Shown here piece by piece: positions 14,918 through 36,786 of a stretch of DNA of 64,000 nt. The DNA comes from Ischnura elegans (Eukaryota > Arthropoda > Insecta > Odonata > Coenagrionidae). Position 1 is the stretch's first letter; each line of letters begins with the position of its first letter. A program made the position numbers and the translations under genes. Under the pieces are notes generated by a model that did no database searches, was not told the DNA's origin, and was given only the letters and a program-made list of their open reading frames with translations. Location of the stretch: the NCBI RefSeq assembly GCF_921293095.1, contig NC_060259.1:42947812-43011811 (forward strand), written 5' to 3'.

Positions 14918-14925
14918 TGACGTCA
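14918..14925 (+). promoter_or_regulatory. CRE-like octamer upstream of the UPF0390 gene
   Basis: A perfect TGACGTCA octamer lies 206 bases upstream of the chosen ATG. CRE octamers close to the transcription start are common in housekeeping promoters (known). No TATA box is seen, fitting a broad promoter. Confidence 0.5.
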
Positions 14926-15130
14926 CAAAATGCTTGTCGACTTTGTGAGTGAGTCAACTCTAGTCTGTTTTTATCTAGAAAAGTTATTTTCCGCTTGTCA
15001 ACTGTTTCTCCATTGCTGTGGTTCGATTTGTAGCGCACAAATTTGGGAAATTCGTCCACATTGTGGTAATATTATTGTTTTTCCAATAATTCGCATTCTT
15101 GGTTCTTTAAGTTTCAAATACCATATTAGA

Positions 15131-15582
15131 ATGCCCCAAGGAAAATTGAAGGCGAAGGCTAAATTGCCCGCGTCCGTAAAAATCAAGAAGGTTAAGAATA
15201 AGGGGATGAAGAAGAGAGCAAGTAAGTTATTGAGTATTAGTATTGTTAACCTTTTGCATGGTCTCTTCAGAAACAACTATAACTATCAGCCCTATCCATG
15301 CTTGCTCGATGGTGCAAGTGATTGAGGCCTGAGCATAAAGGGCACTTTCATTTCGCTCGAGTTAGTGCTTGAAAGTAATTTATTATGTGTGGTTTTTAAG
15401 ATCGCCCGGTGGCCCCGAAGGGAAAGAAGGATCCCGAAAGCCTGAAGTTGAAGAAGGAGCTGCTGAAAACTATCAATGAATCAATGGAGAAAGAACTAAG
15501 ATCGAAGGCCCACAGTGGAAGCTCCTCTTCCAGATTAGGCAAAAAAACCGGGAATGATTCCGCTACGACGAAGAAGAAGTGA
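15131..15582 (+). CDS. UPF0390 / C19orf53-like basic protein (exons 15131-15221, 15401-15582)
   Basis: A small lysine-rich protein of the UPF0390 family (human C19orf53, Leydig cell tumor 10 kDa protein), whose precise role is poorly known. Exon 1 begins MPQGKLKAKAKLP, the conserved start. It is basic through KIKKVKNKGMKKRA and ends at a GTAAGT donor. Exon 2 follows a GGTTTTTAAG acceptor, restores the split codon (N) and reads RPVAPKGKK, then LKLKKELLKTINESMEKELRSK, a conserved amphipathic helix, and ends with a serine/lysine tail and TGA. Total 90 residues, the usual size of the family. The frame is also open 67 codons upstream to an ATG at 14930, but the family start decides for 15131. A possible poly(A) signal AATAAA lies at 16032. 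Reading frame and splice phase are intact, so it looks functional. Confidence 0.88.
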
Positions 15583-21120: not shown

Positions 21121-21447
21121 CGGTTGCGATCCCAAGAACTTTTCACTTGGTCCTTTCTGCATCCCTCTTCCACATTGCATGTCCATCGTGCATGCACTCC
21201 ATTTCTGAGTGGCCACTCCTGTACCCTCATTTCATGCTCAGCATTCCTATTCCACTGCATTAAGGTACGTTTTCCAAGGAGCGACTGTAGCGATGATCGC
21301 CGGGCGATGATCGCTGACCGATGATCGCTGGACGATGATCGCTGGTTAGCGGCCGCCTTGGTGTTTTCTTAAAAGCGACTGCGATTTTCTTCTGAAGCGA
21401 GAACCCAGTAGTCTCCAAACTCTTTACCTGTGCAAGTGCGTGAGAGC

Positions 21448-23606
21448 ATGAGTAATAAAAAGAGGCGTATTCTAGCGTTTTTACTGAGTGAGGAAGAAGA
21501 CGACGACGACATTGCAGAGAAAATCATTATTTCCAAGAGAAAGTCTGAGCATCAGATATATAAAACAAGGAGTGAAGAGGGATACTCACATATGCTGATC
21601 GAAAACCATTTGCGAGGAGACAGTGAGAAGTTTTGCGAATTTTTCCGTCTGAACCCCTCCCAGTTTAATTTTATTTTAAGCTTAATAGAGGATGACATAA
21701 GGAAGATAAATTGCAACAGACATCCCTATCCAATCAGACCTGATGAAAAGCTTGCACTTACTTTGAGGTAAGTCGGAAATTAGTTCATGTTACATTTTGG
21801 AGTTGTTGACAAGAAATCTCTTCATTCTAAAATGATTTGGATACATAAAGTGGTTATTAAAATCAGTGCAACTACCTTAAAAACTGTAAGAATTCACACC
21901 CGCTCCTTCATAAATGTCAAGCCTACCATAATCACTTGGTGAAGCTGGTAGAGAATTCCCACTAAGTGGAGTTAATCCACTAGTTGCTGGTGAGGGAGTG
22001 GAAAAGGTAGTGGACAAGGAAGGACTGGGAAGCTGACGCTCCACTTGCCTTCTCATTTCGGTCTCAAAATTAGAAACAAGCGTTAAAGTTTGTAATTTTA
22101 TTTGGGTAATGAAATCTGGACTAAGTTTCTTAACTGTTTTAGCAATACTTTAAAAAAAATAAGTCCACTTCATCCTCTTCTTCCGCTAATAAACTTTCTA
22201 TGATAGTTTTGCGTTCATGGTCCCTTTCTTTTAGGTGCATTAAAAAGTTATCCTTAGCACTTTTTTTCACTTTATTGGCTCCACCAACATTCACTCTGTC
22301 TGCCGAGTTCACCGAGGAACCAGATTCCCCACTTACGCATATTCCTTCGATCTGCTCACATTCAGGTTGGGGTTCACTTACTTCCCTCTCGGATGTGATT
22401 TCTACATCAGCCGTATCCTTTTCATTGGATATGGTCTTTCTGGGGGCCTCCGTTGATTGTAAGAAAGATAACTTTTCTTTTAGCTGCCACTTTTTTCTTT
22501 TCATATCGGGAGCAGCCACTGAGCCTGTCGGTGACCTTGCTCTTTTTCTCCTGTCATAAGTGTCTTTAATGTTTTTCCATCGTTTTTTACAATCTGTCAC
22601 TGAAAGAAGGAAAACATTTTATCAAGTATTGAATAAAGATTGTTGAAAAACAAAAGTATAATTATACTCTACTTTTCGCAGGTTTTTGGCGACTGGAGAG
22701 TCTTATCATTCTCTACGGTTTCAATTCCGAATATCTGCCGGTGAAATAAGCAAGATTGTTGCTTCTACATTGAGCGTCCTGAGAGAAAAGCTAATGCCAT
22801 TGTATTTGCCACCGTTATCGCCTGAAGAAGTATTAAGTAAAACAGATCAGTTCTACCAAAGATGGAATTTTCCAAATTGTGCGGGTGCTATAGATGGAAA
22901 GCACATTCGGATTGTCTGTCCTAGTAAGACTGGTTCCCTTTTCTTCAATTATAAGGGCTATTTTTCCATCGTTCTGCTGGCTTTGGTTGACGCCAACTAT
23001 AAGTTCATGTACATTGATGTTGGCTCCTACGGAAAGGAAGGTGATAGCGGAATTTTTGATAGGTCAGACATTGGGAAAAAAATTGCTACTGGGTCCCTGC
23101 TTCCTTTGCCGCGTAAACTACCTAATTCTGATAAGGTACTTCCATGTGTGTTAGTTGGTGATGAAGCCTTCAGATTACATACAAATATGATGAGACCCTA
23201 CCCAAGAACTGATGCAGCAGCTAACGAGCGAAAAGCTATTTTCAATTACAGGCTTAGCCGTGTTCGTCGAGTTTCCGAAAACGCTTTTGGATTGTTGTCC
23301 CAAACCTTCAGGATTTTTTACACTCCCATTCATTTACTACCTTCACGAGTTGATGACGCCATCATCGTTTCTTGCTGCTTACACAACCTGCTAAGAGATG
23401 ACTTCATTTCATCACATGGAAAAACCAACTGTGATTTTGAACCGGCAAAAGATTTGCCTTGTCAAAATCTAATTAGTTTGGCTGGCACTGGAGGTTTTGC
23501 AAATCAAGAAGGTTTTTCTGTGAGAGATTCTTTTGCAGACTACTTTATTGGAGAGGGCAGTGTAGGATGGCAAAACCATCATGTGAACAGAACGGACAAA
23601 AATTAA
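21448..23606 (+). CDS. Harbinger DDE transposase (exons 21448-21767, 22682-23606)
   Basis: Nuclease that cuts and joins the element's ends, acting in the nucleus with the MADF/Myb-like partner. The ATG at 21448 starts MSNKKRRILAFLLSEEEDD; a GTG six codons upstream is ignored. Exon 1 has an acidic N-terminus and FFRLNPSQFNFILSLI, typical of the family's helix-turn-helix leader, and ends LALTL at a GTAAGT donor. Exon 2 follows TTTTCGCAG, restores R and reads FLATGESYHSL, the expected junction. Catalytic residues: first D in CAGAIDGKHIRI, second D in GKEGDSGIF, E in LVGDEAFRL. RRVSENAFGLL and CCLHNLLR complete the family signature. Total 414 residues, usual length. No stops or shifts seen. The 914-bp intron carries exon 2 of the antisense MADF gene. 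Confidence 0.93.
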
Positions 23607-24769
23607 TGCCCTCCAATTTTTTAATGTTATTTTTAAATGATTTAAGTAGTATTATTGATAAATTTAAAGCATACATAAAGCACTCGGAGAAATTACTTCG
23701 ATCCATTTAAAATATGTCAGCCAAGGCGTTAGATACAGGTAAAATGAAATCACTTGAGGTCGCAAGAGAAATTTTGTAATTTGTGGATGTATTGCTCGTA
23801 AAAATTCAAAATGCTTATAGTCTATTATTCATATGGAGAGAAAAAATATTATGAATGTATTATTATGAATAAAGAATTACCAAATCATCAAATTTCTCAT
23901 TTATAATATGCCATCGAAATGCAAGTAAAGTGTTGCCCACGGAGCTATCGGATTCCTACTGAAAGCGGTGCTGAAATTATGCAAAATTACCCTTTGGAAA
24001 CTTTGCCTTGATATGAAACAAAGCCCTTACCACTGAAGTTATTATCCACCAGTCCCAAGTTAGCAATTAATTAAATATTGTATTATATTAGTGAAGCCAA
24101 TTGCCGATTAGGAATTACGTAGTAGGTATTTAATGACAGCTTATATCCACACTCGTGCTAGAAGAAACCCGGCGCAGTTACACATCTACAGTCGAAGAAA
24201 ATTTTCCCTTTTTGCCGTGCAGCTAAGAATCCAAGGTCATAGACTAAAAGAGTCCGTAACTTATTAGGAGTATATCTATGGGAATTCTTAGAATCTCATC
24301 CAGGAGACGGGATTAAGCTAATAGTTATCAAATATGTTTACTGAGTTGCAGCAAAGGAACTTCATTAGTCTCATTCATAACTACACTTGGTGGTCATTAT
24401 CAACTGGAATCAATCGTAATTATAGCATCCAAAAAATGTTAAATGGCATAATATAATAATTAAAAAATTCTGCAATCTGGTGAAAGAATAGTCATTATCT
24501 AACAAATCGAAAAGATGATCTGAAAATGGTTAACGAACTAGATCTGTTCAAGAAATAGCAGATACAAACTCAAGGAAATTTTAGATTGTGATGAACTCAC
24601 CTGGTCTTCTTACATATTCTGCGATCTCTTTCCAAATATTGTCTTTCACACGTATGTCCCGGTATAGTGGATGGTGCAAATCATACAGTGCTGGATGGTC
24701 TCTCACCTTTTCAGTCAACTTTTCGTCTTCTTCCGATGAAAAATTCAATTTTGTGGTGCTGCACGCCAT
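21877..24769 (-). CDS. Harbinger MADF/Myb-like protein (exons 24769-24601, 22599-21877), frameshifted
   Basis: DNA-binding partner that in animal Harbinger systems recruits transposase to the ends and to the nucleus. Exon 1 starts MACSTTKLNFSSEEDEKL, then VRDHPALYDLHHPLYRD and IWKEIAEYVRRP, ending at a GTGAGT donor (24600). Exon 2 follows CTTTCTTTCAG, restores V and continues TDCKKRWKNIKDTYDRRKRA, completing the MADF fold. An acidic, serine-rich linker and LLAEEEDEVDLFF follow. There the frame closes at 22139-22141. One base fewer in the T8/A3 run near 22150 would continue SIAKTVKKLSPDF, TLVSNFETEMRR and about 60 more residues to a stop at 21877-21879, so one inserted base truncates the C-terminal BESS-like part. 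Its intron contains transposase exon 2. Confidence 0.88.
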
Positions 24770-27200
24770 GATATCACTTCATTCACCGGCAAATAATCGC
24801 TGGCGACTGCGATTCCTACCCCTCTCTGGGCAGGATACCATAATCGCCCAGCGATCAAAGTAAGCGACTCCCGCAATAGTCGCGTGTTGGAAAATGGTTA
24901 CATTGTAGAGCAACGTATGCAGGCTGTCGCGATCATCGCTCAGCGATCATCGCCCGGCGATCATCGCTATAGTCGCTCCTTGGAAAACGTACCTTTACAC
25001 GGAGTGTGCACTGTTTGTGGAATTGCATGTTTATTATCCATACCCTCATTCTACACTTGTATCCCTGTGGCCATGTTTTGACTCTGGCCACATCCACATT
25101 CCACACACTCATTCTGCACCCACAACCCAATCTGTTTATCCAAAATGCATGGTACAAAATACAGCCGACTCTATCTGTGCATGAGTTCATACTGCAGGAT
25201 GCAGTGCACGATCACGCTCTGCGTCCTGCAGCGATTGCAATTGGGCTCAGGAAAATGAAACTGTCAATGAGTCTGGGAAGCTATCTAAAAAAATTGGACC
25301 TATTGCGTAAGTAATAATGCATCAGAATGAATGGGCATCGCTCCTCTTGCAATAGCGTTTCCTCTCTTCCAGTCGCCATACATGCTTCCTCCCAGAATGC
25401 TCTTTTTGACGAGTGTTATAAAGTGGGAATTTTGGCCTCCCTCCCCCCATCTACGACCCCCCTAGAGCTGAAGCACCTGGAGCAGGTGTGCATTTAGGCA
25501 TTCTGTGCATTTTCTGCACCAAGGATCAACTGCGCCCACTAAAGCACCCCCAATCCCCAACAACTGTTTTTCCTCCCCCCATCTTTACCCTCTCTCTTGC
25601 ACCCTTCCTTCTTCCCTCCCTTTTGTTCCTCTTCTCACTTGAGAAAGATGGGCTGCATCCTATCGAAAATTCGAAGTAACTATAAACTAAGTTCCCTCAT
25701 TTTATTTTTTCATTTATATTTTCTCTGTAACTAAGAGTTTCTGTGTGCCTACCCTAGGGCTAGAAAAAGTTTGAATTTATTATTTATAATTATGTATTGT
25801 TTGTAGGGATGTGTGAGTACTCGAAAATTCAAGTCGAGTCGAGTAGTTGGTACTCGACGTGAGTGCTTTGAGTGGTATTGCGATTGTCGAGTCGAGTAGT
25901 TTCGGTTACAGAGCTGTCGAGGCCAGTAAGTTCAGAACACTGCCGACAGCTTTTTTATATGTAGCTGTCAACCACTTTACAAAGTAGTCGTTGTTTGGAT
26001 TATTTTTGTTTTCCAATTATTATTCGTGCTGCCTCACCCCATTTAAGCTGGGATAGTGAGGAGTTTGCTGTGTATCCGTATAACCCACATCCCCTGGCTA
26101 CATTCTCAATCTGAACCTGCATCGTCTCCTCTGTCTAAAGGGGTATCATACATCCACGCTTCACATTCTCTTTTTGCCATAATGTGACCATTTAACCACA
26201 CCCGCCATCTCTCATCCAACCTCAGCATTCCCTATGAACACTACTTTAATGGAGTATACTTGTCTCTGCTGCAGTCAAGCCTCCATACTCCTGTTCTGCA
26301 CCCATATGATAATCAAATAACGACTCCAGCTCCCCAAATCCAAGCTTCATTCTATCATTCTGTGCTCATATTGTATCTATTTCCTAACTCTGTGGCCATT
26401 TCTTAATCCTTCCTACATGCTCTAAAATCTCTTCACCCCTGAGTTTGCATCCTCAAGAGAAACAATTATCCATATTCCATGCCATCATTCTGCACCATCC
26501 CTGATCATGCTTCCTCTTCTAAGTTCCTCAAACTCATTAAGCTCCTGCATGCTGACCAAGTGCCTACCACGGTATCATGCATCCAAGCATACCTTCTTAT
26601 TCTGGAGGGTAAGTAGGCACTTAGAAGTAGTTTGGGCCCATTATGAGGATATAGTGTGTGGATAGGTGGTGCAGAAGTGGCTGCATTGTCAGGGTATGGG
26701 AGCAAAATGAAAATGTGAAGCATGAGTTTCTTATGTGTGAGCGCAGGCATTGGAATGGGAGAAAGTGGAGCATGGATATGGAATCTCTTCCGCACCTTCC
26801 GATTCTGCACACCCACTATGACCACGTGTTAACTGGGGCATTCCACAACTATGCTTCAGAGACTCATTCTGCATCTACACTTGACCAAGGAAGTCAAGTT
26901 CATCTTCCCACGTCAGCATTACACATCCTACTCCTGCATCCTAATGTAGGGTAACAGTGACTTTCCTAATATGTCCTCTTCATATTCACTCTGTACTGGG
27001 GGTCTGACGGTATATCAACTCCATCACCCCACCTCCACGTTCTCATCAACGGAACATTCCATTAAAGGTGTATTTATTAAAGGTGTTCTACGAAAAAACA
27101 GATCCACACTCGGTACCCTCATTCAGGACCCACAACTAAACCTATCGGTAACTGCGGCATTTCAGATTAATAATACTCTGCATCACAAGTATGTTTTATG

Positions 27201-35176: not shown

Positions 35177-35920
35177 TATATCTTGATGTTATTGAAAAAT
35201 GTCAATTTTATTTTTGTATCAGTATTGTTAAAGGAACACACAGGAAGATGAAATGAAAAAAATAATGAATTATACCCACGATGGCCTTCAGAATTTTTGC
35301 ATGCAAATGCAATGTTATGACCCTCCGCTAAACTTGAACCTCTAATTATCGAGATCTGTTGATCTATTTCTTAAATTATTTTAGTTGCTAACCACCTCTC
35401 ATAAAGTTCTCAGCTGTTCTTAGTTTATATTTTTTTGAATATTCAGAAGAGTATTCAATTAAAAATGAAGTTTTTTGTAGATGAGGAGCTGGTTCTGACT
35501 TCCTGCAAAACAGATCATTAGCTTGGTGAGATTAAAAAATGCTGCTATTACTATTGCACAATTGTATATTGAGTGTCTAAAACTCTTTTAAAAAGTATCT
35601 TTTTTAATTTTTTGGCTGCATTTGGAAAGTGCTATTTGCAAGCAATTCAATGGGAGATAGCATATTTTTAAAAATATTTCATTGTGGAGAAACTGACTCA
35701 GAAACTTGTGGATTTTGTATATCTTGCGTGTTTGAATTTTTTTGGGCAGTATGATTTTGGAAGAAGATTAAAGAGACTTGGAAGGTTCCCTCTGAAGGAT
35801 TCAATTATTATTACACAAAGAAGAAGCTTCAAATAAAATACAAATAATATTCAAGTGCATCCATACATCCTATGCTTAAAGCCAAAATCTGAATAAGATG
35901 ATGTAAGTTCACCATTTTCA

Positions 35921-36786
35921 CCACCAGTTCTACCATTCACCCTACGCAAGTCTATCCTGAGTAGAAATTACCGATTATCTGGACATCATATCCCTTCGGT
36001 CACCTCTCAGAAGGATTTAGGGGTTATTTTTGACTCTAAGCTGCTCTTTCGTGAGCACATTAAATCCATTTCCACCCGCGCTATGTCTTTGGTGGGTATG
36101 ATGTATCGCCATAGTGAGGTGTTGGATTTAATTGCTCTACGCACCTTCTTCCTTTCCTGTGTCTCTCCGGTCCTAGAATACTGCAGCCAAATCTGGTCTT
36201 CGGCCCCACCTTCTTCATTAAAACTCCTGGAACATTCATTGAATTTTTTCCTTTCTGTTGTCCGCTACCGCCACTTGCCTTTTCGTAACTTCTCCCTCAA
36301 TAAGATTAGATCCTCTCTTGGCATTTCTACTTTAGCTGATCGCCGTATCCTCAATGACCGGAGACTCTTTTTAAATATCATTAATGGCAAATACAGATCA
36401 TCAGACCTTCTTTCTTTTTTTCCGCTTCGTGTTCCTTCGCGCACGACGAGGTCGAGTGACCTATTTCATTGTTTCACCCCCCGCCTTTCTGTTTCTAAAC
36501 GTTCTTTTCTATTCAGACTTCCTTCTTCCATTAACTCATATGCCAAATGTGTTCCAAATTTTGATCCTTTTTTTCATCCCTCACCCAACTTGCACCATCA
36601 CTATCGTAATTTTCCCCCTATTCCTCGCACCACCCGATGACTATTCTTTGTTATTATTTGTAAATACTGTTGAATATTTTTTGTTTTTGTTGGTTACGTT
36701 GCTTAATGTTATGTAATTATTTCTCCTGTTATTGTAGTCCTCTGTAATTGGCCTCGTGCTGTTTTGGACTAAATAAATAAATAAAG
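35921..36786 (+). pseudogene. 5'-truncated LINE (RT C-terminus, 3' UTR, AAAT tail)
   Basis: From about 35921 the frame reads LRKSILSRNYRLSGHHI, then KDLGVIFDSKLLFREHI and MSLVGMMYR, then SPVLEYCSQIWS, ending at a stop at 36638-36640. This is the thumb and post-polymerase region of a non-LTR reverse transcriptase of Jockey/CR1 style; palm motifs are missing because of 5' truncation. The surviving frame is open for 240 codons. A 130-base 3' UTR and an (AAAT)n tail at 36771-36785 finish it. No clear target duplication was seen. The preceding 35177-35920 holds nothing recognised. Confidence 0.85.

Follow-up and report, generated by a model that had tools for sequence, protein, structure and literature searches.

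The question raised by this locus is how two genes of one transposon come to lie in each other's introns, and what has kept them there. An earlier note on a 64,000-nucleotide stretch of Ischnura elegans DNA (the window) had proposed that a Harbinger transposase gene and an antisense MADF partner gene share such an arrangement. We found that positions 21263-24994 constitute a complete PIF/Harbinger DNA transposon, bounded by inverted repeats and a TTA duplication, and the identity of both genes is borne out by matches to PF13359 and PF10545 together with these ends. The features of the element, in window coordinates, are listed below with the evidence for each.

21260..21262, no strand: target-site duplication, left copy (TTA); by eye
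21263..21328, + strand: left terminal inverted repeat, start AGGTACGTTTTCC; inverted-repeat arms
21290..21345, + strand: left subterminal array, 14-bp units with the palindrome GCGATSATCGC; unit and motif scan
21448..21767, + strand: transposase exon 1; splice signals, family comparison
21768..22681, + strand: transposase intron, holding the entire MADF exon 2 in antisense; splice signals, GT and AG kept in 8/8 copies
21877..22599, - strand: MADF exon 2, second half of the domain and BESS-like tail, frame-broken here; splice signals, Pfam, copies
22600..24600, - strand: MADF intron, holding the entire transposase exon 2 in antisense; GT and AG kept in 8/8 copies
22682..23606, + strand: transposase exon 2, DDE_Tnp_4 domain; splice signals, Pfam
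24601..24769, - strand: MADF exon 1, first half of the MADF domain; splice signals, Pfam
24929..24968, + strand: right subterminal array, 14-bp units, inverse of the left array; unit and motif scan
24929..24994, - strand: right terminal inverted repeat; inverted-repeat arms
24995..24997, no strand: target-site duplication, right copy (TTA); by eye

The transposase gene on the forward strand and the MADF gene on the reverse strand run towards each other, and the intron of each gene encloses the entire terminal exon of its partner. The two acceptors stand back to back across a spacer of 82 bp (22600-22681). The mutual placement of transposase exon 2 and MADF exon 2 described in the earlier note is thus upheld by the splice sites and is shared by nine families, and the coordinates of all four exons agree with its statement that the coding exons of the two strands alternate without overlap. 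Its figure of about 1.7 kb for the complementarity of the unspliced transcripts holds as a minimum: the potential complementarity runs from 21877, where MADF exon 2 ends, to 23606, where transposase exon 2 ends, and so covers 1,730 nt or more. Two exon details need correcting: transposase exon 1 ends at 21767, and the MADF frame of the window copy is broken in exon 2, reaching a stop after 209 aa. Intact 296-aa copies are present elsewhere in the genome.

The splice signals of the transposase gene are a donor AG|GTAAGT and an acceptor CGCAG|G, and joining the two exons yields an open frame of 414 aa that matches PF13359 with an E value of 8.3e-27. Motifs of the DGK, DEA/DDA and ENAFG type are visible by eye in the transposase alignment rows; we take these to be the conserved D, D and E residues of a DDE_Tnp_4-type transposase. 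A comparison of transposase exon 2 with solved structures gave no match at an E value of 1. The MADF gene has a donor CCAG|GTGAGT and an acceptor TTTCAG|. The PF10545 match in the window copy improves from an E value of 4.7e-8 with exon 1 alone to 1.8e-18 with the exons joined, and reaches 8.3e-21 in the intact copy L006. A single MADF domain is therefore rebuilt from two halves by the splice, which is independent evidence for the MADF intron. The tail of the protein resembles a BESS motif, with scores above the curated Pfam cut-off in L060, L064 and L069 and below the 21-bit cut-off in L006 (19.5), L053 (16.1) and L063 (13.6); the tail piece of the window copy tested alone gave no BESS match. 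The partner is probably a MADF-BESS protein. As expected of a PIF/Harbinger element, the window element carries a second gene of the Myb/SANT/MADF kind by Pfam, both terminal inverted repeats and a 3-bp duplication of the TWA type.

The inverted-repeat arms (21262-21328 and 24929-24995) are about 67 nt long and 97% complementary, and we read the outermost base of each arm as part of the duplication. By eye, the 3-bp duplications match in eight of the nine loci with both ends visible (L003-L011), L008 being the mismatch; the matching triplets are TTA or TAA in six loci, TCA in L005 and ATA in L011. The palindrome GCGATSATCGC, at up to one mismatch, occurs seven times in the 64 kb, all seven inside the element, compared with 0.41 matches expected from shuffled sequence. 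The length of the subterminal arrays varies in L008, L009 and L010, and the differences sum to multiples of 14. In the zebrafish element Harbinger3_DR the Myb-like protein binds a subterminal motif, according to the accessible text of PMC9710019. By analogy, the 14-bp palindromic units are probably binding sites of the MADF partner. Scans of the window for tRNA genes and Rfam families found nothing. An open frame at 14921-15325 on the forward strand contains MPQGKLKAKAKLPASVK and resembles the UPF0390 type of small protein conserved in animals; it is perhaps a host exon. Another forward-strand frame at 35897-36640 (247 aa) is similar to the final part of a reverse transcriptase from a non-LTR retrotransposon.

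A DNA search of the 1.72-Gb genome recovered eight full-length or nearly full-length copies of the element (L003-L010) with pairwise identities of 99.2-99.9%; copy counts use these eight of ten rows, the incomplete rows L011 and L012 having been left out. Across the four splice sites of the eight copies, all 32 dinucleotides were kept. Four of the eight copies have an open transposase frame, three have an open MADF frame and two have both. The window element is a recently active PIF/Harbinger transposon. The MADF frame is broken at the same two places in the window copy and in L004, which also have in common several other differences from the remaining copies. Because the two copies sit at different insertion places, the broken version itself has probably moved. 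This suggests that a copy with a broken MADF frame could be mobilised in trans by the proteins of other copies.

More distant relatives were sought with transposase exon 2, and the best 150 of 1,074 candidate matches were scored. We then scanned 31 loci with small purpose-built profiles: the best-scoring exon 2 matches, eight hand-picked loci, L014 and the window copy. The hand-picked set covered 20 of 40 planned places (11 with short flanks, 8 + 1 added). In 28 of the 31 loci (weakly in L014; L047 and L050 are one element) the MADF exon 2 half precedes transposase exon 2 and is antisense to it; the exceptions are L067, L068 and L070. The complete order of transposase exon 1, MADF exon 2, transposase exon 2 and MADF exon 1 is present in 19 of the 31, and in most of the remaining loci transposase exon 1, MADF exon 1 or both are missing from the stretch examined.

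These loci yielded nine interlaced families within the one genome (L003, L042/L043, L049, L053, L060, L063, L064, L065 and L069), with identity down to about 40%. All four pieces are in order in eight of the nine; L049 has three, its transposase exon 1 being recognised by tblastn only. The acceptor of the transposase intron falls in the same codon and phase in all nine families, and the donor is likewise the same in all eight families with exon 1 placed. The MADF acceptor is clear by eye in every family except L049, which also showed no MADF exon 1. The MADF donor was seen in four of the eight families with MADF exon 1 (L003, L043, L053 and L064); it was not located in L060, L063, L065 and L069, where the borders of MADF exon 1 are provisional. 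Pfam MADF matches exceed the cut-off in L006, L053, L060 and L064, and exon 2 alone falls slightly below it in L063 and L069. Full-length matches were obtained with the joined exons of L053 (E 2.4e-21) and L064 (E 1.9e-19).

Five further interlaced families (L043, L060, L064, L065 and L069) have terminal inverted repeats of their own, and all five show 3-bp duplications by eye if the repeat is taken to start at AGG or GG. No inverted repeats were seen at the ends of L063 and L053 in the stretch examined. Beside the terminal repeats of L060, L064, L065 and L069, short family-specific units are apparently repeated. In L042 and L045, which belong to the 67% family, the reading frame changes between the second half of MADF and the BESS-like tail, which are separated by about 190 bp; the transposase intron may contain an additional MADF intron there.

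The arrangement was also approached from the MADF side, with the MADF exon 2 sequences of L053 and L064 as genome-wide queries; the matches, some weak and some from other families, merge into 74 loci. All 38 loci with a transposase match within 6 kb, among the best 150 of 1,074, have the two genes on opposite strands and MADF exon 2 ahead of transposase exon 2. The other 36 have no transposase nearby among the matches listed. One of these was fetched, and a transposase 95% identical to that of L053 was in place, so the choice of matches explains at least that one apparent absence. MADF-only derivatives had been considered for the 36 loci, and the one examined was thus not of this kind. Relatives in viral contigs were also sought; ten stretches matched a pattern and none was confirmed.

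The layout reported in the earlier note therefore extends to the eight copies and eight further families, and it stops short of four more distant families, L067, L068, L070 and L072, which do not show it. In L067, L068 and L072, three of these four, the LR|F codon is read straight through and that transposase intron is absent. L070 shows no interlaced layout, and the stretch examined does not reveal the place of the intron. No MADF partner was found in the scanned loci of L067 and L070. L072 has a MADF piece past its transposase, on the other strand, that scores 25.8 bits against a cut-off of 22. A piece downstream of the L068 transposase had no Pfam match; we take it from its resemblance to be part of a partner gene, less surely than in L072. 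L072, and less surely L068, thus differ from the window element in that a related transposase is accompanied by a partner piece beyond it and not interlaced with it.

A transposase tree of 13 loci separates the nine interlaced from the four non-interlaced families by one branch with support of 99/96. When four further DDE_Tnp_4 transposases from this genome served to root the tree, the interlaced families formed one clade (95/98), and the four non-interlaced families fell outside it without a supported clade of their own. The outgroups (L074-L077) were hand-picked from 150 listed matches, and one is only 124 aa long. The program cautioned that these long outgroup branches may have been drawn together, which leaves the root less certain than the split. 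For transposase exon 2, comparison of the window element with its nearest relative family gave a dN of 0.26 with dS undefined; dS was undefined in 11 of 12 comparisons, and no dN/dS ratio is claimed. We read the undefined dS as saturation, so the layout looks old. Collectively, these comparisons make us confident, from sequence, of the anatomy of the element, of its conservation in families of one genome and of a single origin of the interlaced layout.

We propose that transcription runs inward from both ends of the element, so that the two transcripts converge. Each primary transcript would cross the last exon of the other gene and remove it within its own intron, given the presumed splicing in vivo. 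The layout would have arisen once, in the ancestor of one clade of elements, and would have been kept since as a compact packing in which each gene is locked to the other by the occupancy of its intron. Loss of either intron would be barred, and deletions affecting one gene would often harm the other as well, so the two transposition proteins would stay linked. The lock is leaky: in L011 a deletion has truncated MADF exon 1 at its donor end, and transposase exon 2 is still open. That this element would need both proteins is taken from the literature on its relatives: for the rice and zebrafish elements, transposition requires both, according to the accessible text of PMC9710019. Whether the packing or the linkage is itself favoured by selection is close to evenly balanced in our judgement, and we propose such a benefit tentatively.

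Frozen accident is the neighbouring explanation, in which the genes became interlaced through an early rearrangement that no viable single step can reverse, with no benefit involved. What separates it from the reading favoured here is solely whether selection acts on linkage or packing. The single origin on the tree fits an accident of this kind, as does the consideration that reversal would require an exon to be moved out of an intron without breaking either gene. The families outside the clade nevertheless manage without the layout, and the layout has been kept over saturated divergence, both of which speak against it, though neither is decisive. We regard an accident without benefit as possible, though somewhat doubtful. 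Chance overlap of the window copy with an unrelated host or transposon MADF gene, which the large number of MADF genes in arthropods might suggest, has next to no probability: the MADF gene lies inside the terminal repeats in all eight copies and in the five further families with terminal repeats, which rules such an overlap out.

The earlier note suggested that double-stranded RNA could provide a built-in dosage or silencing switch. In a fuller form of this reading, the convergent pre-mRNAs would form nuclear double-stranded RNA or interfere with each other's transcription, so that output would drop as copies accumulate. The potential complementarity of the primary transcripts is compatible with such a switch, as is the opposite-strand order in all nine interlaced families. 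The window family furthermore lacks both AATAAA and ATTAAA in the interval from the MADF stop to transposase exon 1, and the MADF mRNA may therefore continue antisense to that exon. Against this, the mature mRNAs have no overlap in their coding exons, and the length of an overlap makes no specific prediction by itself. The poly(A) signals that were found are, moreover, placed as in simple shuffles: for six MADF and eight transposase flanks, signal position relative to single-base shuffles gave fractions of 0.10-0.92 in 12 flanks, and two more flanks had no signal. We consider an antisense switch unlikely. Stated as a conserved control device, reciprocal intron occupancy would allow convergent read-through to lower output as copies or promoter activity rise; the speed of splicing would choose between productive mRNAs and double-stranded RNA, balancing transposase against MADF protein and damping overproduction. 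This form of the proposal is equally improbable to us. A separate idea, that poly(A) placement keeps the mature mRNAs apart, was dropped, as the signals are no closer than in shuffled sequence.

On the favoured reading of compact, mutually locked packing, the element is a two-gene transposon whose genes are hard to separate and whose layout has been retained through long divergence. The interlaced clade and the related non-interlaced families also form a natural contrast, in which one can ask whether a selfish element gains or loses by antisense overlap. More speculatively, the layout may bear on the frequent joint domestication of PIF transposase and MADF genes, and on the single large intron in some domesticated PIF transposases.

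The element resembles the PIF/Harbinger transposons with a Myb-like or MADF gene that are treated in PMC9710019, such as zebrafish Harbinger3_DR and insect PIF elements, in its DDE_Tnp_4 transposase and partner, terminal inverted repeats and 3-bp duplication. The accessible text of that paper describes the two genes and differs from our account in that it does not mention interlacing. The same text describes domesticated insect PIF genes that are likewise pairs of transposase and MADF genes, among them the Anopheles pairs and cockroach BPLG1 and BPLG2. The two exons of BPLG2 lie about 900-1,500 bp apart in most cockroach species (PMC9710019, accessible text), a spacing close in size to the transposase intron of the window element, whereas the Anopheles pairs are described there as adjoining, unlike the interlaced genes of the window. 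We found no description of the interlaced layout in the literature searched, including the accessible text of PMC9710019 and PMC11893794; most subscription papers and Repbase reports lay outside the search, and an earlier description is possible. The PIF/Harbinger element type is thus known, and the unusual conserved gene layout is apparently new. Among animal host genes there are nested or interleaved antisense cases in which exons of one gene lie in an opposite-strand intron of another. Unlike these host genes, the arrangement described here is reciprocal, lies inside one transposon and is common to several families.
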